A stretch of DNA of 28,053 bases, taken from positions 1 through 28,053 of IMG/VR virus record IMGVR_UViG_3300012189_000009. One strand, 5' to 3'. This document shows, piece after piece, positions 2,669 to 17,402 of this stretch. Each line of letters starts with the position of its first letter. The first letter of the stretch is position 1. Origin of the DNA: a virus. The translations under genes were made by a program, and so were the position numbers. Below the pieces are notes generated by a model. The model saw only the letters and a program-made list of their open reading frames with translations. It did no database searches and was not told where the DNA came from.

Positions 2669-3506
2669 ATTCACCAAGATCCTCCTGGAAGGAGACTCAA
2701 AAAGTGGAAAAACAGGTTCCCTCGCGTCCCTCGTTTCTGCAGGATTCAAACTTCGAATCCTGGATTACGACAACGGGCTCGACGTGCTCAAGCAGTTCGT
2801 CATTCGGGACTGTCCCGACAAGCTTGGAAACGTCGAGTACAGAACCCTCCGAGATCGACGTAAGGCCACCCCCGCCGGTTCCGTTATCGCCGGAGGCCCG
2901 CGGGCCTTTCCAGATGGGCTTAAGATGCTGGACCGATGGAAGTACGATGACGTTGACCTTGGTGTGCCTGCAGAATGGGGAGCAGGTTGCATCCTTGTCA
3001 TCGACTCACTTACCTTCCTGTCAGATGCAGCCTATGACTTCCGCGAGCCCCTTGTACCCCGTTCGAGAGATGGTCAGTACGATAAAAGAGCAGTTTACGG
3101 AGATGCACAGAACGCTGTCGAGAACGTCCTCGCGGATCTCACCGGGGAAGGATTTAGAACGAACGTAATCGTGATCTCTCATATTAAGTATGTGGAGAAC
3201 CCTGACGGGACGAAGAAGGGCTATCCGAACTCCGTAGGTTCTGCGCTATCCCCGTTGATCCCTCGTTATTTCAACAACATCTTCCGCTACAAGAACTCTG
3301 GCGGGAAAAGGGTCATCGAGACCGTTTCCTCCGCCATGTTCGACCTCGCCAACGCCAAGCCCTTCACCATGCCAAAGGAGGTGCCGATTGACACAGGCCT
3401 AGCGGATATCTTCAGCATACTAAGGAGCTCCCATGAAGTTCAGAAAGAAACCAGTAGTAATCGAAGCGGTACAGTGGCTGCCAGAGGCACCAGAGCCGGC
3501 GCCTGA
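2637..3506 (+). CDS. Sak4-like RecA-fold phage ATPase (AAA_24 type)
   Basis: 289 aa. The Walker A motif is GDSKSGKT (residues 19-26), and Walker B is ILVIDS (119-124) followed by LTFLSDAA. A sensor-like strand VIVISHIKY sits at about 177-185. The DYDNGLDVL stretch after the first strand is typical of phage Sak4/AAA_24 ATPases, single-strand annealing or recombinase-like proteins that work with phage SSB. The start is TTG 2637 with GGAGG six bases upstream. The ATG at 2665 is out of frame. The last 24 codons overlap the next gene in another frame, and the C-terminal tail (SSNRSGTVAARGTRAGA) is low-complexity and probably disordered. Its position between a Cas4-like nuclease and an SSB-like gene supports a recombination role. 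Confidence 0.8.
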   Translation: MPSLSNHQSNEFTKILLEGDSKSGKTGSLASLVSAGFKLRILDYDNGLDVLKQFVIRDCPDKLGNVEYRTLRDRRKATPAGSVIAGGPRAFPDGLKMLDRWKYDDVDLGVPAEWGAGCILVIDSLTFLSDAAYDFREPLVPRSRDGQYDKRAVYGDAQNAVENVLADLTGEGFRTNVIVISHIKYVENPDGTKKGYPNSVGSALSPLIPRYFNNIFRYKNSGGKRVIETVSSAMFDLANAKPFTMPKEVPIDTGLADIFSILRSSHEVQKETSSNRSGTVAARGTRAGA

Positions 3507-4233: not shown

Positions 4234-4249
4234 TTGATTGGAGGAAGAG

Positions 4250-4501
4250 ATGGAAACCAAAGATCTTCTAGCAGAACGCGGCAAGACCAATGGGGATTTC
4301 GGAGTGCACGCAGCGTTAACGCAAGAGCTTAAGGAGGTAATGTTCGGCGTGAACACCTACAAGGATCTATCAATGGTCCAACGCGAAGCCCTCGAAATGA
4401 TCGCCCACAAGATCGGGAGAATCCTAGCGGGGAACCCGGATCACAAGGATCATTGGGATGACATAGCTGGGTATGCTAAGCTAGTGGCTGATCGGCTATG
4501 A
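4250..4501 (+). CDS. DUF6378-like small phage protein
   Basis: 83 aa. The C-terminal pattern MIAHKIGRILAGNPDHKDHW followed by DDIAGYAKLVADRL is the signature of a common phage family (DUF6378), all-helical and of unknown function. ATG 4250 is chosen over the in-frame TTG 4238 because GGAGGAAGAG lies immediately upstream. It is the first gene after the hairpin-rich gap and its TGA overlaps the next ATG, so it opens a new coupled set leading to the polymerase genes. Confidence 0.75.
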   Translation: METKDLLAERGKTNGDFGVHAALTQELKEVMFGVNTYKDLSMVQREALEMIAHKIGRILAGNPDHKDHWDDIAGYAKLVADRL

Positions 4502-4671
4502 CGGATTTTCCCCGCCAACCGCAACCAGTGATCGTGTCTTTCAAAGGAGAGCCCGAAGATATAATAGAGTGGTATCGTCGATTGAAAAGGTCTGCTGAAT
4601 ATAAGGGAGACCTAGTTCAAGAGAACGACCACATTTCCTTCACGATTCATCCAAGAGCCGTTAATGACTAG
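4498..4671 (+). CDS. Hypothetical small protein, 57 aa
   Basis: This ORF starts at ATG 4498 in an ATGA overlap with the previous gene and ends at TAG 4671, eight bases into the UDG-exonuclease gene. The protein MTDFPRQPQPVIVSFKGEPE continues with EWYRRLKRSAEYKGDL and a beta-like end. No family recognised. It fills the only gap between its two neighbours and is coupled at both ends, which supports it being translated. Confidence 0.6.
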   Translation: MTDFPRQPQPVIVSFKGEPEDIIEWYRRLKRSAEYKGDLVQENDHISFTIHPRAVND

Positions 4672-5707
4672 CATCGCCATCGTCGGCGAAGCTTGGGGCG
4701 CTGAGGAAGCCAAGCAGCGCTCTCCCTTCGTTGGCGGCTCTGGCTACGAACTAACGAAGATGCTCTCCGAGGCCGGGATTCACCGAGCAGACTGCTTCCT
4801 CACGAACGTATTCAACATCCACCCTCCAGGGAACGATCGCTCTTGGTTCTGCGGGCCGAAGGAGGAGGCGATCCAAGGTTATCCCAAGCTCCTCAAGGGC
4901 AACAAGAAAGACTTCAACCACTACCGCGGGGACTACGTTCGTGGAGAATTCACGCCGGAACTTGAAAGGCTTTCCGATGAGCTTCTTGCGGAAGATCCTA
5001 ATATCGTCATTGCGTTGGGTAATACTGCGGCATGGGCGCTCCTTGGCAAGACTACTATTAGCAGATTGCGAGGGGTTACAGTCTTATCAACTCACACTTG
5101 TAGTGGATTCAAGATCCTCCCCACCTACCATCCAGCTGGAATACTACGCCAATGGGCGCTACGACCGATTGGAGTTGTAGACCTCGGGAAGGCCCTTCGC
5201 GAATCCACCCACCCAGAGATCATCCGCCCTAAGCGAGAGATCTGGATCGAACCAACCTTGGAGGACATCTATGACTTTCACCGAAAGTTTATCGAAGGAG
5301 TTCCACTCGTATCTATCGATATTGAGACAAGCGGAAACCAGATTACTTGCTTTGGAATTGCTCCTTCAAGAGCAAGGGCCTTGGTTATACCGTTCCGTGA
5401 CGGAAGAAAGCTGGGGGGAAACTATTGGGCTACTAAGGATATTGAACGAGAGGTCTGGGCGTATATCAGAGGAGTTTGTGAAGATCCAAGACAGGGAAAG
5501 ATCTTTCAGAATGGGCTCTTCGACACCGCTTTCCTATTTAGAGCCATGGGAATAAGGGTCGCGGGGGCGGAGGAGGATACGATGCTGCTTCATTATAGTT
5601 TGCAGCCAGAGAGCCTGAAGGCTCTTGGATTTCTAGGCTCGATCTACACCGACGAGGGCTCTTGGAAGGACATGCGGAAGAGGAAAACGACGAAGAGGGA
5701 TGAGTGA
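4664..5707 (+). CDS. UDG-like domain fused to N-terminal half of a DnaQ-type exonuclease
   Basis: 347 aa, two domains. Residues 1-180 look like a family 4/5 uracil-DNA glycosylase: GEAWGAEE (8-15), PFVGGSGYEL (21-30), TNVF (47-50), ALGNTAAWALLG (117-128) and YHPAGILR (155-162). The N-terminal Cys pair that helps hold the Fe-S cluster in family 4 enzymes is missing. Residues about 190-347 begin the 3'-5' proofreading exonuclease of a family A polymerase: Exo I SIDIETSG (D219, E221), Exo II FQNGLFD (N283, D287) and EEDTMLL (D305). The chain stops before Exo III, which is found in the polymerase gene downstream. A UDG-like domain on a PolA-type polymerase is known from SPO1-type phage enzymes. 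Here the same order is kept but the protein is broken inside the exonuclease. Together with the polymerase ORF it should form one replicative enzyme. Confidence 0.8.
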   Translation: MTSIAIVGEAWGAEEAKQRSPFVGGSGYELTKMLSEAGIHRADCFLTNVFNIHPPGNDRSWFCGPKEEAIQGYPKLLKGNKKDFNHYRGDYVRGEFTPELERLSDELLAEDPNIVIALGNTAAWALLGKTTISRLRGVTVLSTHTCSGFKILPTYHPAGILRQWALRPIGVVDLGKALRESTHPEIIRPKREIWIEPTLEDIYDFHRKFIEGVPLVSIDIETSGNQITCFGIAPSRARALVIPFRDGRKLGGNYWATKDIEREVWAYIRGVCEDPRQGKIFQNGLFDTAFLFRAMGIRVAGAEEDTMLLHYSLQPESLKALGFLGSIYTDEGSWKDMRKRKTTKRDE

Positions 5708-5852
5708 TATGGAACACGAGATTGGCGATAAATGGTTAAATCTTATATCAGGACTTGAATACGAATGGGATGGTGAAAAGTGGGTTAGTACGGAGGAGTA
5801 TCCATATGGAACTAACCCAATGGGCTTCCTCGGTGATGGAACCCAACAGTGA
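5700..5852 (+). CDS. 50-aa ORF inserted between the two parts of the DNA polymerase
   Basis: ATG 5700 overlaps the end of the exonuclease gene by eight bases, and a second in-frame ATG at 5709 has GAGGG upstream. TGA 5850-5852 overlaps the GTG start of the polymerase gene (GTGA). The protein begins MSDMEHEIGDKWLNLISGLE and continues with a W-D-G-E-K-W-V stretch. It is acidic, with no cysteine pairs or HNH/GIY-YIG motif, so it is not a recognisable homing endonuclease. The exonuclease and polymerase ORFs are in one frame, but the bases between them contain several in-frame stops, so no simple readthrough can join them. Its place makes it either a linker gene or a moron-like insertion. Confidence 0.6.
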   Translation: MSDMEHEIGDKWLNLISGLEYEWDGEKWVSTEEYPYGTNPMGFLGDGTQQ

Positions 5853-7333
5853 AGATAGTACACACTGATAGGCTAGGTCCTACACGGCTTAATGCCTGGG
5901 AAAGGGATCAAACGTACAATGGCCTCGACGCCTCCATCACCTTCGAGCTTCTCGAAGTGCTTCGACCACAGTTAGACAATTACACAGATGCGACGTATCG
6001 GTTCTCAAAGGAGCTTCAGGGGCCGGTGCTTGAGATGCGGCTTAGAGGAGTGCTGGTCGACAACGAACGAAGATTGGAAGTCCTCGAAGCCTACCACGAA
6101 CTTCTGGACCGACTCGAAACCCAACTTGAGAGGATCGTCCGCGAAGGTCTAGGGATAGTCAACTTCAACTGGCGCTCGCCGCCACAACTACAGGAGGTTT
6201 TTTATGGAAAACTTAGAATTCCACCTATCAAACGACGTGGCTCTATTACCGTCGATCGAGATGCTATTGAACGAATGGAAGAGTATCTTATCGCAAGACC
6301 AATCCTCTCCCATCTTACAACAATGCGCGATATCGCTAAAAAGATCTCCGTACTCAAAACCGAGATTGATCCTGATGGTCGAATTAGGACCTCCTACAAC
6401 ATCGGGGGAACAAACACAGGGAGGCTTAGTTCAAGTCTATCGGAATTTGGTACGGGCGGTAATCTCCAAAACATCGAAGACCTCCTCCGATCCGTCCTCG
6501 TCGCCGATCCAGGAATGAAGATGGGGTACTTCGATGCGGAACAGGGGGAAAGTCGTGTCGTGGGTGGGATCGAGGTCCAACTCTTTGGTGACAGTAAGTA
6601 TCTCGACGCCTGTGAATCGGGGGACCTACACACCACGGTGGCGAAACTTGTCTGGCCACGACTTCCTTGGACGAATGATCTTGCGGCTGATAAGATCCTC
6701 GCCGAACAGCCATATTACCGTCACTATTCGAGACGGTTTATGTGCAAGAAGATTGGTCATGGGACCAATTACGGGGGCAAGGCCGCGACGCTAGCGCAGC
6801 AAGCGAAGGTGGAGATTGAGTTGATTCAGGAGTTTCAACCGATTTACTTCCGGACTTTCCCGGCGCGCTTAAGGTGGCACGCACATGTCGAACGAACAAT
6901 TCAAGAAACAGGTACAATTGTCAATCTTACTGGCCGCAAGCGTCAGTTCTGGGGTCGAAGAAATGATCCTGCGACCATTCGCGAAGCCATTGCATATGAT
7001 CCACAAGGATCGCTTGCCGATATCGTTAACCGTGGAATGCTTGCCGTCTGGAGAAATCGTTGTGCCCAACTTCTCATGCAAGTCCACGACGCCATCGTAA
7101 TCCAATACCCTGAGGAGGAGGAAGCGGATGTTATCAAGAAGGTCCTTCGGCTTTTGCCTTGGCCTATTCCCATTCGGGATAGGCAGCTTGTCATCCCCTA
7201 CGGAGTTAAGACCGGCTGGAATTTTGGAGAGTTCGATGCAAAGACAAACCCGGCTGGGCTCAAGTCCTACAAAGGGACGGACAAACGGCAGCGCCCAGCG
7301 AAGGTGTCGATCTTGGATAGAAAGTTTCGTTGA
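5849..7333 (+). CDS. Family A DNA polymerase, C-terminal part (Exo III plus polymerase domain)
   Basis: 494 aa. It starts at GTG 5849, coupled to the previous stop. Residue 23 begins YNGLD (Y23, D27), the Exo III motif of the proofreading domain, so the exonuclease active site is completed by this chain. The polymerase domain follows: TNTGRLSSS (188-196), GNLQNIE (204-210), motif A FDAEQGESR (D229), motif B R296-x3-K300-x3-H304-x3-Y308-G, the QGSLADIVNRGM helix (386-397) and motif C QVHDAIV (H413, D414). Two departures stand out: His at the place of E. coli Pol I Phe762, and Ala in place of Glu in the HDE of motif C. Both catalytic aspartates are present, so the enzyme should be active. The last 98 bases overlap the helicase gene. 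This is the replicative polymerase of the phage. Confidence 0.9.
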   Translation: MKIVHTDRLGPTRLNAWERDQTYNGLDASITFELLEVLRPQLDNYTDATYRFSKELQGPVLEMRLRGVLVDNERRLEVLEAYHELLDRLETQLERIVREGLGIVNFNWRSPPQLQEVFYGKLRIPPIKRRGSITVDRDAIERMEEYLIARPILSHLTTMRDIAKKISVLKTEIDPDGRIRTSYNIGGTNTGRLSSSLSEFGTGGNLQNIEDLLRSVLVADPGMKMGYFDAEQGESRVVGGIEVQLFGDSKYLDACESGDLHTTVAKLVWPRLPWTNDLAADKILAEQPYYRHYSRRFMCKKIGHGTNYGGKAATLAQQAKVEIELIQEFQPIYFRTFPARLRWHAHVERTIQETGTIVNLTGRKRQFWGRRNDPATIREAIAYDPQGSLADIVNRGMLAVWRNRCAQLLMQVHDAIVIQYPEEEEADVIKKVLRLLPWPIPIRDRQLVIPYGVKTGWNFGEFDAKTNPAGLKSYKGTDKRQRPAKVSILDRKFR

Positions 7334-9945: not shown

Positions 9946-12900
9946 TTAATACCTCCTCGGATGCACATGCCCTCTAGCGAGGAGCCTGAATGCATCCCAA
10001 CCCGTCTGCGGTCGTTCCTGCCCTGTTAGCCACCGATGGAAGCCCGCCGCTGTCATACCTATTTGTTCTCCTGGAAGGCCACCAGTGAATATTCCAATGC
10101 CACCAAGGCCTTGTTGGATAAGAGAGGACTTCGTCTTTGGCGAAAGCTTTCCGTGGCTTCTAGTAGCCTCGTCAATTGCCTTTGACCCTTCGACAAGGGC
10201 ATGATAAATAGTTTGCAGACCTGAACCAGCAATGCCGAACGCGAAGTCCCCGCCTGTCTCCAAACCATAGGCGATGTCTCTAACCAATGGGTAAGGAGCG
10301 GTACCAGCACGAAGAAGGAAGTCTGCAACTTTTCTCCCCGCTCCTTTCTTCACTTCTCTTGGGTCGTCCCCTTTCAAAGCTTCCTCAACATAATGCTCAA
10401 CAGCACCGATAATAAGCACCGTTGAAGCCAAGAGATAAACGCCTCTAGCATTCTGCTGGAAGCCCTTTTGCCATTCACCCTTTGACCAACTATCCCAACC
10501 GTACTTCTGCCTCCACATGGACTCGTCAAAGGCCTGTGCGACAGTATTGAACCACCCCATGTAGGACGTGTATAGCTGAGAGATAGGGCCACCTAGCATA
10601 ATTGGGGCCTTCCTCGCCGGATTAGCGCTACCGTGGGCCTTGACGACAGCTGTATCGCCTTGTAACTTGGCGAATTCTATATCCCCTGTCTCTCGGTAGA
10701 CTTTGTTAAACGCAGCGAGCCAAGTCGGACGTGTTGAGATGGCATCAGAAAGCGCAACCATGCTTCGACCCAGCCTTTGCCCGAGTTCGATAATTCCAGC
10801 CTTGCCAGTCACCTGCTCCGTGGCGCCAGTTATTGTGTTTTCCCAGAAATTATCCCGCTGAGGAATCTCCCGACTATTTTCATTGACGAATTGCATGTTC
10901 TTATCGCTGATATGAAGAGGCCCACCAAGCAATTGCGTCGAGGCCCACAGAAACTCGATAGGTCCTACCTCCACGATACTTCGCATCAAAGATGAAGGCC
11001 CGTGCTTCATTGGAGTGCTGAGCCTAAAGTTTAGCGTGTTACCAACGACGTTCTTTCGGTACCAAGCTAGAGGCTTATAAAATGCTGCTTGCGATTTAGT
11101 TGGGGGAGTTCCAGAGTTGGACAAGCTCTTAAGCCACTCTTCCATAAGCTGTAGGACTTCTGGGTTGTCGTACATTCGAATCGCTCGACGAAGGTCTTGA
11201 TCTCGAAGAGCCTTAGCAAACTCCCGAACAGGCCCACGGATGGCAATGTCGTGGATCATCTCAGTCATTGAGGACTGAACGACGCGATTGAAGTCCAACG
11301 ATATTGGATAGGTAGCTCCTGTTCGTTCCTTCTCGAAGCGTCTAGGGGTGGAGGCTCTAGTGTACTCACGGCCTTCGAGGTTGAAAGCTTCGGCCTGCGG
11401 CTTCCCTTCCCACATATAGTGTGGCATTAACTTTTGATAACCGCCTTCGTAATGCTTCCCCCAAGGAGTGTCGAAGCCTTCAAGAGGAATGTTCTCAGCC
11501 GGAACGTCGCTTTCTGCAACAGCGTTTACATCCGCTCGGCGCTTAAGCTCTTTGGTGATCTTATCCCAATAGTTCTGCATCCAGTCGAAGTCTTTAGGAG
11601 AAAGCGTTCTAAAGAGCCATTGGCGAATGCGCTCAACGTCTGGCTTCCCATCAGGAGTTCGAAGGTTATAGCCTGAAGCGAGCTTCGAGGCGTTACTCAA
11701 GTTCCCCATATTCGCCAAGACCGCCATTGCATCAAGGTGGGTCATGGGAATGTAGTATTCAATCCCGTCCTTCAACTTATCAGGATCTAGGAACAAGTCA
11801 TTGTCTACCTTCGCACCAGGCTTACCAATCTTTCCAAGGCTACGATAGATCTTGGAGAACTCCTTCGTCATCTCCATCCTGTGGTAGCCGCCTGCAATCA
11901 ACGGATTCGCCAACCACTCAGTGAAGACGTTCCTTGGATTCCCTCTAGCCCATCGCTCAAACACGCGCTCGGTGGTGATATTGGACCAATAAGCCATCCT
12001 GGCTGCGTGGAATATGCTGTAAGTTGGAGTTTCGTTCAAAGGCACATTCCCTGGAGGACCAAGGGCTTGCAGATACTCTCGACCGGCGTCGACCAAGTCC
12101 TTTCGATCAATGGCTTCGCCGGCTTTGTAGACCTTTTCGGAATCTCTTCCCCGCTTGATCAAGGTGCGGATAGAGTAGTTAAGCGCTCGAAACTCTCCGA
12201 CAGTCATGTCCTTGACATTCTTCGTCTTGGAGGAATCGCGAAGAAACTCAGCCACAGGAACGTCCCAGCCCTCAACTCTAGAAAGGTGATCGACGAACTC
12301 ATCGAGGGATTTATATCCGCTTCGATCTATCGCGTCCTTGAGGTCCTCCGGACTTCTATTGACCTGTTTTCCAACTCGGCTGAGGATATCGTGAATGAAG
12401 TTGGTATGCTCGATCGGAAAGTTCGCAACCTCCCGAGACCGCCACCGCTTAGCATTCCTATCGAACTCCTTCCCTTCCTTTTCCACCGCACGCATCTCTT
12501 TCGCTTGCGCAGTAAGGAGGTATTGATTCTGCATGGCTTGGAAGGCTTCGAGTTCCTTCCCAACGCCAATGGCCTTCTCGATCTTGCGGAATTCCGTCGC
12601 GGCCTGATTCAGCAGCTTAATCGCCGACTGCTTCGCGTAAGGCTTGCCCTTTAGAAGCTCCACCGCTCCCCAATCCATCGCGGCCTTATTAAGCGGAAGG
12701 GCTCCGCCTAAACGGGTGCCGAGGGCGAGGACTTGCTCGTGCAGCATCTCCATCGTGGAGAGAGAGAGGGCTTGGTCAATCTTGTCATCAAGGACTTCCT
12801 TAGGAGTCTTTCCAAGCTTTTCTTGAAGAACCCTCTGGACTTCTGCTTTGACTAAGCGGTCGACAATGTCCCCCTTGCCTGCGGCTGCCTCGTCGGCTAC

Positions 12901-15309
12901 GCCCTGAAGAGCGCGGAGGAGATCTGCCCCTGTAGAGAAGCCGAACTGACCTGCGGCATCGTCGGGATGAAGTCCTCCAGGACCAACAAGTTCCGGAAGG
13001 GCCTGAGCCTGCGCCAGGGTGAGCTCTTGCGGATCGAGCTTGACCTTCTTCAGCCGCGTCCACGCAGCGATCATAGGATTAGCGAGGACGCCTGCGCGAA
13101 TGTCTGGCTCGATCTTGGCCGCTTCTTCCTTCCAAGCGACGGAGGCTTCGAGCTTAGCCTGGGCTTCGCCACGGCGCTTGAGCCATGCTGCGTCGTCGTT
13201 CGTTTGCTCTTCGATAGCCTTTAGGAGGCGCTCGTATTCCTTCTGGGTGCGCCCGAAGGCTTGGCCCTTTTCGAAGGGGAGAGAAGGCTCAGATTCTGGT
13301 AAGGCTTTATCGAAGCCAGCCTCTAAGATTGCCCCCTCAGTGCCGATGGGTAAAGGCTCTCTTTTAGTAGGACGGCCGGAGCGGCTGCGCTCAAGAACCT
13401 TGGATATTAAAGGCTCATTAGCTGCCAAACCTATAGCTTTGCGAAGTGAATCGACGACGGGGTCTTGCGTTATCTCAACGCCAGCACCAGTTACCTTTGG
13501 TACCCCTTGTATGTCACCTAAGCCGCGCAAACCATGTTCTCTTAAAAGCTTCTCATCCCCTCTACTGGCTACGCCTAAGCGAAACCGCTCAATCGCATTC
13601 CGCACTTCATCCGGCGCTTTTTCAAACTGTTCGAGATTCCAGCCAAATAATTCTTTCTCAACCCTATCCGGAGGCTTTTTCGCAACCTTGCGGAAGGAGG
13701 CTACGACTGGATCACCAAGCTCAAGGCCAAGTGATTCGCGTGATAAATCTATTGCTTCCTTCTGGGTAATTATCCTTCCCCTAGAGGTCTGAAATAGATT
13801 ACGCTTACTGCCACCAGGGTCAACCCCACCATATTCCTTGAGAGCTTCATTATAAGCTCCAAGGTGTGTATCGCCTGTATATACTTTACCACCAACCTCC
13901 ACCGCATGTGTGGCCACTTGTTCAGGTGGTTCTTCCTTTACTAGTTTCAGCCCTTCAAGCTCATTTTTCGTCATCCCTCCCCTTGACACAAAATCCTTGA
14001 CCTCCGACCAAAGCTCCGGATCGAAGTTAGCGATAAAGTCCTTGGCCGAGACTTCGACCTTTCCTTCAGGGACGCCAACGGACGGGATCCACTTGAACGC
14101 ATCTGGGAACTTAAGGATAGCCTCCTTCTCAATCGCGATCGTTCCTTGAGGGTGGTGGTCAAGGAACTCGGCGAACTTCTCCGGGCTCCGCTCCTTTAGC
14201 GCCGTTGCCTTAGCGTCGTCGATGGCTTCTTTGATGATGTCTTGATCGAGCTTGGCTTGCTCCTCCCGGCCTTTATCCGCAATCTGAGAGATCCCCGCGG
14301 GAGGCTCTTCGCCAGCTTCGGCCCAAGGACGGAGGGTTTCGGCCTCCTTGGCGATAGCTTCTAGTTGTTGAACAAGTCCGCTGACATCCATCCCCTCAGC
14401 TTGAACTCGCTGAAACCAGGGGGCGAGTGTTTCCTGGAAGCGCTCAAGTGGGCCTTTGATAATTCCTTTAGGCAGCGCCGCCGCTGCGCTTGCTGCACCT
14501 ACCCCTTGGAGAAACCCCCTCCGACTCATATCCGTCGGTTCGCCTTCAATCGTCGGCCCGGGCTCCGGTAAGCCCTCTATGGGTGGAGGCTTAGCCTCAG
14601 GGGGAAGGATCTCGCCTTCGCGAAGCTCCATCCCTTGCGGCCGACCAACCCGAAGTCCGGCAGAAACCGCCATTGCAACAGCTAGAGACTCACCAGCAGT
14701 CTCAGAAGTAATATCTCCAGATAGAATTTGTCGATGGAGCTCGCCGGTAAGAGCCTTTTCAGTAAGCCTTTGCGCAGCTTGAACCAAACCAACGGTCGAG
14801 TTCCAAAGCAGGGAGGAAGTAACTGCTTCAGGAACCCTTGTGGCAAGGCCCTTCTGCCGCCCTGCCCAAGGTCTAGCCGCTTGTGCCAGCCGTTGTGCTG
14901 CAGCTTGGAATGGAATAGGGTCGAAGTCCTCCGAAGGCGCAGATGCTTGGGCGTAGGAGGAATAGACTGTGCCAAAGGGATGCCAACTTGTCATCTTGGA
15001 GTAACTAGAAGAGAACTGATCCAAGGCTCCAAGGTCGTCCTTGATCAAGGCAGGGTGGAGCGGATGGGCATTGAGGAAGGAGGTAATCGCAGGGCTTTGC
15101 CGAGTGATCTGGCCGCCGAGATGGGTCTGGAAGTCCTGCTCGAATTGGTCCTTGTTATTGGCGATGGTAGTCGCGTCGACGCCTGAGGCCTTGCTAAGTT
15201 CGAAGGCGCGAGCTGCGTCGTCTGGACTATGCTCGGCAACGCTCAAGCTGCTTGCGGCAGAAGCGAGGAAGGCTTTGCGAGATTCGTCGAAGTCGTAGAC
15301 GTTGCTCAT
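9946..15309 (-). CDS. Giant internal virion (ejection) protein, 1787 aa
   Basis: It starts at MSNVYDFDESRKAF in an ATGA overlap with the preceding virion gene. Very long, mostly helical and charged, it sits after gp14-like and M15-peptidase virion proteins, the place of T7 gp16, so it is probably carried in the capsid and ejected with the DNA. I see no transglycosylase motif. A twin-arginine-like segment, SRRGFLQGVGAASAAAALPK, lies at about residues 262-281, far from the N-terminus. Near residue 1620-1640 is a membrane-like stretch, YLLASTVLIIGAV. A GGYQKLMPHY stretch, reminiscent of the GGYYP-type segment of large phage polyvalent proteins, lies in the second half, and the C-terminus has the GLPGEQ-type ending seen in such proteins. 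The large-polyvalent link is weak inference. Confidence 0.75.
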   Translation of the reverse strand: MSNVYDFDESRKAFLASAASSLSVAEHSPDDAARAFELSKASGVDATTIANNKDQFEQDFQTHLGGQITRQSPAITSFLNAHPLHPALIKDDLGALDQFSSSYSKMTSWHPFGTVYSSYAQASAPSEDFDPIPFQAAAQRLAQAARPWAGRQKGLATRVPEAVTSSLLWNSTVGLVQAAQRLTEKALTGELHRQILSGDITSETAGESLAVAMAVSAGLRVGRPQGMELREGEILPPEAKPPPIEGLPEPGPTIEGEPTDMSRRGFLQGVGAASAAAALPKGIIKGPLERFQETLAPWFQRVQAEGMDVSGLVQQLEAIAKEAETLRPWAEAGEEPPAGISQIADKGREEQAKLDQDIIKEAIDDAKATALKERSPEKFAEFLDHHPQGTIAIEKEAILKFPDAFKWIPSVGVPEGKVEVSAKDFIANFDPELWSEVKDFVSRGGMTKNELEGLKLVKEEPPEQVATHAVEVGGKVYTGDTHLGAYNEALKEYGGVDPGGSKRNLFQTSRGRIITQKEAIDLSRESLGLELGDPVVASFRKVAKKPPDRVEKELFGWNLEQFEKAPDEVRNAIERFRLGVASRGDEKLLREHGLRGLGDIQGVPKVTGAGVEITQDPVVDSLRKAIGLAANEPLISKVLERSRSGRPTKREPLPIGTEGAILEAGFDKALPESEPSLPFEKGQAFGRTQKEYERLLKAIEEQTNDDAAWLKRRGEAQAKLEASVAWKEEAAKIEPDIRAGVLANPMIAAWTRLKKVKLDPQELTLAQAQALPELVGPGGLHPDDAAGQFGFSTGADLLRALQGVADEAAAGKGDIVDRLVKAEVQRVLQEKLGKTPKEVLDDKIDQALSLSTMEMLHEQVLALGTRLGGALPLNKAAMDWGAVELLKGKPYAKQSAIKLLNQAATEFRKIEKAIGVGKELEAFQAMQNQYLLTAQAKEMRAVEKEGKEFDRNAKRWRSREVANFPIEHTNFIHDILSRVGKQVNRSPEDLKDAIDRSGYKSLDEFVDHLSRVEGWDVPVAEFLRDSSKTKNVKDMTVGEFRALNYSIRTLIKRGRDSEKVYKAGEAIDRKDLVDAGREYLQALGPPGNVPLNETPTYSIFHAARMAYWSNITTERVFERWARGNPRNVFTEWLANPLIAGGYHRMEMTKEFSKIYRSLGKIGKPGAKVDNDLFLDPDKLKDGIEYYIPMTHLDAMAVLANMGNLSNASKLASGYNLRTPDGKPDVERIRQWLFRTLSPKDFDWMQNYWDKITKELKRRADVNAVAESDVPAENIPLEGFDTPWGKHYEGGYQKLMPHYMWEGKPQAEAFNLEGREYTRASTPRRFEKERTGATYPISLDFNRVVQSSMTEMIHDIAIRGPVREFAKALRDQDLRRAIRMYDNPEVLQLMEEWLKSLSNSGTPPTKSQAAFYKPLAWYRKNVVGNTLNFRLSTPMKHGPSSLMRSIVEVGPIEFLWASTQLLGGPLHISDKNMQFVNENSREIPQRDNFWENTITGATEQVTGKAGIIELGQRLGRSMVALSDAISTRPTWLAAFNKVYRETGDIEFAKLQGDTAVVKAHGSANPARKAPIMLGGPISQLYTSYMGWFNTVAQAFDESMWRQKYGWDSWSKGEWQKGFQQNARGVYLLASTVLIIGAVEHYVEEALKGDDPREVKKGAGRKVADFLLRAGTAPYPLVRDIAYGLETGGDFAFGIAGSGLQTIYHALVEGSKAIDEATRSHGKLSPKTKSSLIQQGLGGIGIFTGGLPGEQIGMTAAGFHRWLTGQERPQTGWDAFRLLARGHVHPRRY

Positions 15310-17402
15310 TTCTTCTTGCCATAGAGTTGTTGCCAAGCCTGCCGGGCGGCTTCGATGTCAATCATTAGATCCGTGACTTCGCTACCCGGAGCGTCCTTCA
15401 TCATCTCCTGTCGGATGTCGTCCCGCTCCTTGGGAGATAGTGTATTGCCGATGTTGTATAGCGGCTTCGTGGCGTCAAATAAGCCAAACCACTTCTTAGT
15501 AGCAATCCCATAGAGTAGCTGCTTTCCTGTCTTCTGTATCTCCTCAAAGCTTGGCTTCTTTCCTTCTTTAGCTTGGTCCTCCAGCACCTGAGCGAGAACC
15601 CCAACGAACTCGTGGTACTCCTCTGGATTATTTTTCTTATCTAAGTGCAGATTAGGATCATTGATCATCGGATCCAAGATTCTCAAAGCCCGAGAGATCT
15701 GTGGGTCTTTCTCTAAGCTATTCCTTTTCGCAATCTTCTGCTGGTTTATAAACCACTGTCGGTCCCTCTGGCTTAGAGGGAGAGAAGGATCCATCGGATC
15801 GACCTTGATAGCTTCCTCGGGGCTATCCTTCAGCATCCCAGTAAGCTGCGTCTTGTACGCCTGATCAGTCTGCTGCTCCAGCGACTTGTTGTACCCAAGT
15901 ATCTTCCCAGGAATCTGCCTCTGCTTATCTGGCGGTAGCGCATCGTAGGCAGCCCTCCGTGCAGAATCAGCAAGGAGGTCGTCCATATTCGCCGCAGGCC
16001 TACCATCTCCACGATTGAGGATACCTTCGAGGACCATATTGGTATTATCCGCATCAGTCTGTCGGCGAATTCTATCAGTTTTAATCCAGTCCGTTCCAAT
16101 TCGATCCTTGACTACGTCAGGAAATAACGGATCGTCGGTGTTCTGACTTTCCGCGTAGCGCACTCCGCGGTCGAGCCTACTTGTCAAAGGTTCGTCTACA
16201 TGCTTTGGGGCAGAACCGACATCATACTCCTTCGGAAGGGAGTAATGTCCAGGATCCCACGATCGAATCCTATCGTGCTCATCGCCGATGGGGATGCCGA
16301 GCTTGGCCGAGGCAGCCTTTATCGAGGCCTCAGCCTGTTCGTAAGTGGTTCCTTCCAAGGGTTGTATATCAATAGCTCGGCCAGCTAGATGGTTGGAGCC
16401 GTGGATCGTGGTGGTCTTACCCTCTTGGAAAAGACGCATCTGCTGCTCAACAGTGCGTTGGCCGCTGATGATAGTGAAACGAACGTTGGGATTGTCCCGT
16501 TGCGCCTGTTGCATTATTCGATTCAGCGGCTCTTGAACATCCTTAGTTTTAGCGATCTCCCCAGGCTTCATGTAAGGAGCCCAACCAGAATTGACTGCAT
16601 CGGAGATATTCCGAGAGCCGACTATTCGATTTTGGTTCTGGATCTTCGGCTCGATGTGCTGAATATCCTTCGCGTCCATATACTGCCGATTAGCGTCAAA
16701 GATGTCCTTTGCGGAATACGGATCGTGACGAAGCTTGCCTTCAATAAGTGCGGTTGTCAGGCCAGACTGCGCTTTCGCGAGCGCCTGTTTCGTCTGGATA
16801 TCGCCCCAGCCTTCTAAAGCTGACCTCCTGAGAACTGCGTCTCTAATCCCTTGCTGCGCGTGGTTGTAGTTATCTGCGTCGTCAGGATGCGCTAGCACGG
16901 AGTCCTTGTGCATCTCCTCTTCTGCTACAGATGCTCCGTGCGCTGCGGTCTTATTCTGCTGCGCTGCGTGGGAAGCAGCGATGCCGAGCTCTCGGTTCAT
17001 AGTGTAGAGAGAGATACGATCGTAGTTCTTCCGAGCTCGGTCGTTGGACAGGCCTTCGCGGATGCTCTTCCGCAAATCGTCCTGCGCCTTCTGGTGGTCT
17101 TCGAGGCCGTTGACTGCATCAAGGCCCATCTTTTGCGTGTAGTCGGTCTGAAGCTTCCGAGCGCCTAGGTCATGCTGGGCATTAGCTTCCGTCGCTTCGG
17201 TCTCGTTCCGAAGCTCTTGCATCGCGACGGCGCGTTGGAAGAGCTCTCCTCCAACTTGCTGTTCGGTGGAACCAAGATGCTCAATAGCACGGCCAACGTT
17301 AACGCCAAAAGCTTCAGGAGTGATGCCCTGAATTCGCATAAGCGGAGAGGGGATGTTCTCTGGGCTGGCGCTAGGAACAGGGGAGTAGGGCACTTGTGGC
17401 AT
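15306..17402 (-). CDS. Virion protein with M15 (VanY-like) peptidoglycan peptidase domain
   Basis: 698 aa, starting MPQVPYSPVPSASPENIPSP directly after the preceding stop. Residues about 40-290 are helical and Gln/Ala-rich, a structural virion type. The peptidase domain at about 310-395 begins RFTIISGQRTVEQQMRLFQE. It shows the zinc motif SNHLAGRAID (H338, D345) and the closing WDPGHYSLP with D383 and H386, the DxxH arrangement of M15 L-alanyl-D-glutamate peptidases such as T5 endolysin. The remaining 300 residues are again helical. The natural reading is a virion-associated lysin that opens the peptidoglycan during DNA ejection. With no separate endolysin in the window, it could in principle also contribute to exit. 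All zinc ligands are present, so activity is likely. Confidence 0.85.
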   Translation of the reverse strand: MPQVPYSPVPSASPENIPSPLMRIQGITPEAFGVNVGRAIEHLGSTEQQVGGELFQRAVAMQELRNETEATEANAQHDLGARKLQTDYTQKMGLDAVNGLEDHQKAQDDLRKSIREGLSNDRARKNYDRISLYTMNRELGIAASHAAQQNKTAAHGASVAEEEMHKDSVLAHPDDADNYNHAQQGIRDAVLRRSALEGWGDIQTKQALAKAQSGLTTALIEGKLRHDPYSAKDIFDANRQYMDAKDIQHIEPKIQNQNRIVGSRNISDAVNSGWAPYMKPGEIAKTKDVQEPLNRIMQQAQRDNPNVRFTIISGQRTVEQQMRLFQEGKTTTIHGSNHLAGRAIDIQPLEGTTYEQAEASIKAASAKLGIPIGDEHDRIRSWDPGHYSLPKEYDVGSAPKHVDEPLTSRLDRGVRYAESQNTDDPLFPDVVKDRIGTDWIKTDRIRRQTDADNTNMVLEGILNRGDGRPAANMDDLLADSARRAAYDALPPDKQRQIPGKILGYNKSLEQQTDQAYKTQLTGMLKDSPEEAIKVDPMDPSLPLSQRDRQWFINQQKIAKRNSLEKDPQISRALRILDPMINDPNLHLDKKNNPEEYHEFVGVLAQVLEDQAKEGKKPSFEEIQKTGKQLLYGIATKKWFGLFDATKPLYNIGNTLSPKERDDIRQEMMKDAPGSEVTDLMIDIEAARQAWQQLYGKKK

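Follow-up and report, generated by a model that had tools for sequence, protein, structure and literature searches.

The virus genome fragment analysed here (the window: one strand of the IMG/VR virus record IMGVR_UViG_3300012189_000009, 28,053 nucleotides) has its family A DNA polymerase divided between two genes, with the cut lying within the exonuclease domain. We consider it very probable that this is a stable 'gene in pieces', in which one ancestral break gave rise to a two-chain proofreading polymerase, the junction between the halves serves as a slot for accessory genes, and the 50-aa ORF occupying it in the window is a guest.

The first gene (positions 4664-5707, 347 aa; plus strand, as are all features below unless indicated) carries a UDG-like domain (PF03167, 7.7e-21) followed by the N-terminal part of the 3'-5' exonuclease (DNA_pol_A_exo1, PF01612, 1.8e-5), with the Exo I motif D219-x-E221 at 5318-5326 and the catalytic Asp of Exo II, D287, at 5522-5524. 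The second (5849-7333, 494 aa) has a GTG start, begins 22 residues ahead of the Exo III Tyr and holds the whole family A polymerase domain (DNA_pol_A, PF00476, 4e-37). On this chain are Exo III (Y23-x3-D27, YNGLD, 5915-5929), the motif A Asp D229 (6533-6535), motif B with R296, K300, K301 and Y308 (6734-6775) and the motif C pair H413 D414 (7085-7090). A 50-aa ORF (5700-5852), in a frame different from both halves, lies between them: its ATG overlaps the exo stop by 8 nt (ATGAGTGA), and a GTGA overlap joins it to the polymerase half. The two halves share one reading frame in the window and are separated by several in-frame stops. The first-pass annotation had placed the three ORFs at exactly these positions, and its observations on frame and stops, as well as on the break inside the exonuclease domain, hold; the UDG-like domain in the N-terminal half of the first ORF had escaped it. 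All DEDY exonuclease motifs of a Klenow-like family A enzyme (Exo I DxE, Exo II D, Exo III YxxxD) are thus present, on two chains; the trait that is absent is the single polypeptide uniting polymerase and exonuclease. In the UDG-like domain (4664-5150) of this family, the second motif is mostly HPA rather than HPS and there are no paired cysteines near the N terminus, so that glycosylase activity is uncertain.

Scanning IMG/VR with the polymerase half as query returned 80 relatives. Both halves are present in 71 loci, the window included, with 54-76% identity in the polymerase half, and the gene is broken at the same position into two ORFs in all 71. None is fused, which is informative because a fused gene would match the polymerase query equally well. 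The exo gene ends, with minor variation, in ...GS(I/V)YTDEGxWK...(I)KRDE*, the polymerase gene starts with M(K/R)II.T, and 27 residues separate this start from the Exo III Asp in 59 of 78 relatives. The isolated Caulobacter phage Kuura (OQ067476; about 36-42% identical) shares the UDG-exo / Exo III-pol break and has two small ORFs in the slot; a Kuura-like contig (L092) has the same break. In the annotation of Kuura only the second half is called DNA polymerase, the UDG-exonuclease half being a 'hypothetical protein', and the passages found in its description paper make no mention of a split (PMC9959647). A sequencing, assembly or frameshift artefact, set beforehand as a possible refutation of the split, could have been suggested by the common frame of the halves in the window. 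It is excluded by the identical break in dozens of independent metagenomes and an isolate; the invariance of all catalytic residues (see below) and the several stops in the intervening frame speak equally against a decaying polymerase pseudogene, and we regard this whole group of explanations as practically negligible.

On a tree of the polymerase domain, built with a quick method and with long outgroup branches, a branch with support 98 separates all split sequences from the rest, and the split requires a single change; the split form is thus one clade with a single origin. The nearest unsplit kin form a sister clade (Microcystis phage Mel-JY34, Manatee Spring ctMlz233 and L093-L108) with the same domain order in a single UDG-exo-pol chain. 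At the position of the break these proteins have a short hydrophilic linker between 'YWKDEGKEWD' and 'YNCKDA' ('WKDEGKEWD....W'), and judging from them the break falls in a predicted surface loop between Exo II and Exo III. The search for unsplit relatives proposed at the outset therefore both found them and mapped the break, and the uninterrupted orthologue that marks a gene in pieces exists in related phages (L093-L108, Mel-JY34). From a scan of genome contigs a single unsplit relative emerged, a distant one. The contig L091 (JAPPHK010000079.1; 38.8 kb), assigned to a Nitrospinota bin, has a phage-type unsplit UDG-exo-pol gene and is probably a phage contig or provirus.

The exonuclease site has been conserved across the two chains. 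Exo I Asp and Glu and Exo II Asp are invariant (71/71), as are, in the sequences covering the motif, Exo III Tyr (78/78) and Asp (79/79), so that all four exonuclease carboxylates and the Exo III Tyr are kept even though they lie on separate proteins. The catalytic polymerase residues are likewise invariant in the family: the motif A Asp in 81/81, the Arg and both Lys of motif B in 81/81 (with Tyr or Phe at its last position in 81/81) and the His-Asp of motif C in 80/80. Loss of proofreading through the split should have let the exonuclease residues drift; proofreading is therefore probably retained. The earlier reading that a working proofreading site needs both chains holds, and this invariance across 71-79 sequences speaks for a site that functions in trans. 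For structure prediction we chose a relative (L020) with no cargo and a single in-frame stop between the halves. Its read-through chain, an artificial single polypeptide whose alignment included single-chain relatives, gave a single fold when modelled (pLDDT 89, pTM 0.84); the break lies at the edge of the least confident loop (residues 328-337, pLDDT < 50). Foldseek matched the model to the Klenow fragment over about 650 columns, with a TM-score of 0.73-0.77 depending on the target. As modelled, the halves are compatible with one Klenow-like enzyme, a statement about the joined chain that does not extend to the association of the free ones. Taking conservation and model together, the halves most likely assemble into one proofreading polymerase.

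Could a single chain be made after all? Phage polymerase genes often contain introns or inteins. A putative split intein is known from one phage PolB that is itself split (PMC6892783), so that a self-splicing intron, a split intein, stop read-through or a programmed frameshift has to be weighed. No Rfam intron match was found in the window or the test loci, and the exo tail and polymerase start are conserved, stop and start codons included. Many exo-pol junctions overlap by 1-4 nt (genes overlap or abut in 21 loci), and at the overlapping ones there is no room for an intron or intein. Read-through and frameshifting are countered by the relative frame of the halves, which varies among relatives with no constant shift, and by the stops in the gap. 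We hold this explanation to be very unlikely.

The junction between the halves is an accessory-gene slot with a changing set of unrelated small genes. The exo stop and the polymerase start are at most 29 nt apart in 29 loci and more than 130 nt apart in 41, plus the window; the slot is thus empty in 29 loci and filled in 42, window included, with at least 18 changes between these states on the tree. The occupants are unrelated to one another and many are orphans. Among them are HNH_3 endonuclease genes (L003, L030, L035 and L057; weaker matches, below the curated cut-off, in L059 and L058/L071), an Endonuclease_7 (EndoVII-like) protein (L006), a deoxynucleotide monophosphate kinase (L009) and a DUF6378 protein (L037). 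A DUF6378 homologue is also found upstream of exo in the window (4238-4498), one family in different slots. Homing-type nucleases (HNH_3 or EndoVII-like) occupy 7-8 of the 42 filled loci and are absent from the window's own slot; a protein with an EndoVII motif, F-CphI, is described as a homing endonuclease (PMC6083498). The view of the first-pass annotation that the window ORF is not a recognised homing endonuclease stands (no Pfam match even at E 10), while its implication that the split has no link to such enzymes does not, given the HNH_3 and EndoVII-like genes in the slot of relatives. With match positions mapped and slot bases summed by hand, the exo-pol slot, about 1% of the bases, accounts for 7 of the 18 HNH_3 matches found in 40 records; the other 11 comprise 3 at the polymerase-DUF3987 junction, 2 just upstream of exo and 6 elsewhere.

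We also considered the slot as a unique hot spot and rejected this, the g3684-exo junction being filled at least as often (longer than 100 nt in 74%, against 57% for exo-pol). At the other end of the polymerase gene (7239-7333), its 3' end overlaps the 5' end of a DUF3987 primase-like gene, whose annotated start codon is putative, out of frame and at a near-constant offset in 75 of 78 relatives; this junction is otherwise closed, and all 3 exceptions carry an HNH endonuclease gene. Elsewhere in the window, the minus strand at 9946-15336 encodes a protein of 1796 aa in which a large polyvalent protein-associated domain (LPD22) and a weak TAT-like stretch were recognised.

The last codons of the exo gene may be of use to the genes arriving in the slot. 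Within the last five exo codons, AGG accounts for 30 of 52 Arg codons, compared with 182 of 1670 elsewhere in exo genes (p = 2e-15, a value overstated because the sequences are related). In the window the conserved tail codons (KRDE*) contain the Shine-Dalgarno-like AAGAGGG at 5693-5699. Since the Shine-Dalgarno-like sequence AAGAGGGATGA is well spaced for a start codon overlapping the exo stop, any gene that comes next seems to be supplied with a ribosome-binding site by exo.

In the window this next gene is the 50-aa ORF, for which the first-pass annotation had considered the role of a bridging, or 'glue', subunit joining the halves. Its position exactly between them, its overlapping start and stop codons and its coding-like codon usage (0.06 per codon, versus -0.41 and -0.79 in the other two frames) would suit such a role. 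Nevertheless, no homologue was found in the 80 relatives, viral contigs or phage records; 29 relatives have nothing between the halves and others have unrelated proteins there; and the single-sequence structure model is poor (pLDDT 63). Being unique to this phage, the ORF is no conserved glue subunit, and we give a functional bridging role very little credence. A PHROG search gave a best E of 0.13, tail-fibre-like W..Y.WDG.KW matches in phage records were weak (E >= 1), and nothing similar was found elsewhere in the window. Its GC content is 43%, compared with 51-52% in the flanks. Relative to AAGAGGG, the spacing of an in-frame ATG at 5709 is better than that of the one at 5700, and the product may therefore have 47 aa. 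The ORF as a remnant of a slot HNH gene is not claimed: in local alignments to nine slot proteins, 159 of 300 shuffles matched or beat it for L003 (no better than chance), and the results for L057 (6/300) and L046 (9/300) were borderline. By its distribution, the 50-aa ORF appears to be a recent, lineage-specific occupant of the slot, a passenger rather than a conserved polymerase subunit, and we infer that it is dispensable.

The split belongs with other phage genes in pieces and differs from them by enzyme family, by the cut through an active site and by its clade-wide fixation. In the T4-like phages 25 and 44RR (gp43A/gp43B) and in the NrdA of phage Aeh1, an essential replication or nucleotide-metabolism gene is likewise in two pieces with a homing endonuclease or spacer between them; the phage 25 pair gp43A and gp43B is reported to co-purify and to have polymerase activity, and the Aeh1 NrdA to be active although mobE splits it (PMC2988022). 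Reassembly is thus reported there; here residue conservation and the read-through model point to it indirectly. Those cases concern a family B polymerase and a ribonucleotide reductase in single or few phages; the present enzyme belongs to family A, is cut inside the exonuclease site and is fixed as such across a clade, with cargo that is mostly non-nuclease or missing. A split PolA with a 'small unknown ORF' was published for the OM43 phages MEP401 and MEP402 (Zobellviridae; PMC10580990), a distant lineage with no UDG domain, in which the break lies in the polymerase domain just before motif A and the whole exonuclease is on the first piece. In the sister clade the polymerase gene has been broken independently. 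Two related contigs (L110/L116) have an HNH-like ORF of 113 aa between the UDG domain and the exo-pol part, and in L107/L111, L112/L113 and L118 the break lies just before motif A, at the same place as in MEP401, with small ORFs in between (one membrane-like of about 50 aa, one methyltransferase-like of 216 aa). The annotation of a related polymerase (L090; MW202554, ctLwi270; 2700-3300) shows two CDSs separated after Exo III, which could be further fragmentation or a frameshift. Given the sister-clade breaks and the MEP401 break at the same pre-motif-A place, phage PolA genes have repeatedly been fragmented at exposed loops, with small genes lying between the pieces, and the break between Exo II and Exo III is the one fixed in this clade. 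None of the open-access journal papers searched describes this particular break.

How might this arrangement have come about? The ancestor would have been a single-chain phage polymerase with a UDG-like domain, 3'-5' exonuclease and family A polymerase, which suffered a single break in its exposed Exo II-Exo III loop, most likely through insertion of a homing endonuclease gene. For phage 25 the authors discuss an alternative, invasion of the slot after an unrelated break (PMC2988022), and because the same may apply here, the founder endonuclease is something we infer. The halves would since have been inherited as separate, translationally coupled genes, whose products would join non-covalently, the polymerase chain giving its Exo III Tyr and Asp to the exonuclease site of the other chain, to form a Klenow-like proofreading replicase. 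The slot, provided with its own putative ribosome-binding sequence in the last exo codons, would remain a place where HNH and EndoVII-like nucleases and unrelated small genes come and go.

Alternatively, the split itself may have been selected, with a detachable UDG-exonuclease subunit regulating proofreading through the ratio of the chains and slot genes tuning that ratio. Its one ancient origin with no re-fusion among 71 loci would fit, and slot contents would change translational coupling. Neutral persistence explains the same pattern, however, re-fusion being hard once frames and cargo differ, and there is no sign of exonuclease loss or of varying stoichiometry; selection for the split is in our opinion unlikely. 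Equally improbable is that the UDG-exonuclease binds reversibly to a polymerase chain bearing one of the four exonuclease carboxylates, making proofreading a detachable subunit. If true, the same genes would yield exonuclease-free, error-prone and proofreading forms, in a ratio set by the slot occupant via coupling.

The stable gene in pieces that we favour adds a large group of soil phages to the short list of known split phage polymerases, most of them isolated cases. In this group the cut crosses a catalytic site and has been retained clade-wide while the intervening DNA changed state at least 18 times. With no gap, an HNH gene or other small genes at the junction, the loci offer a natural series for testing the two-chain assembly of a proofreading site, and for asking how a phage survives the breakage of essential genes by homing endonucleases. 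Annotation of such genomes should be corrected as well, since the UDG-exonuclease half is, as in Kuura, easily left as a 'hypothetical protein'.
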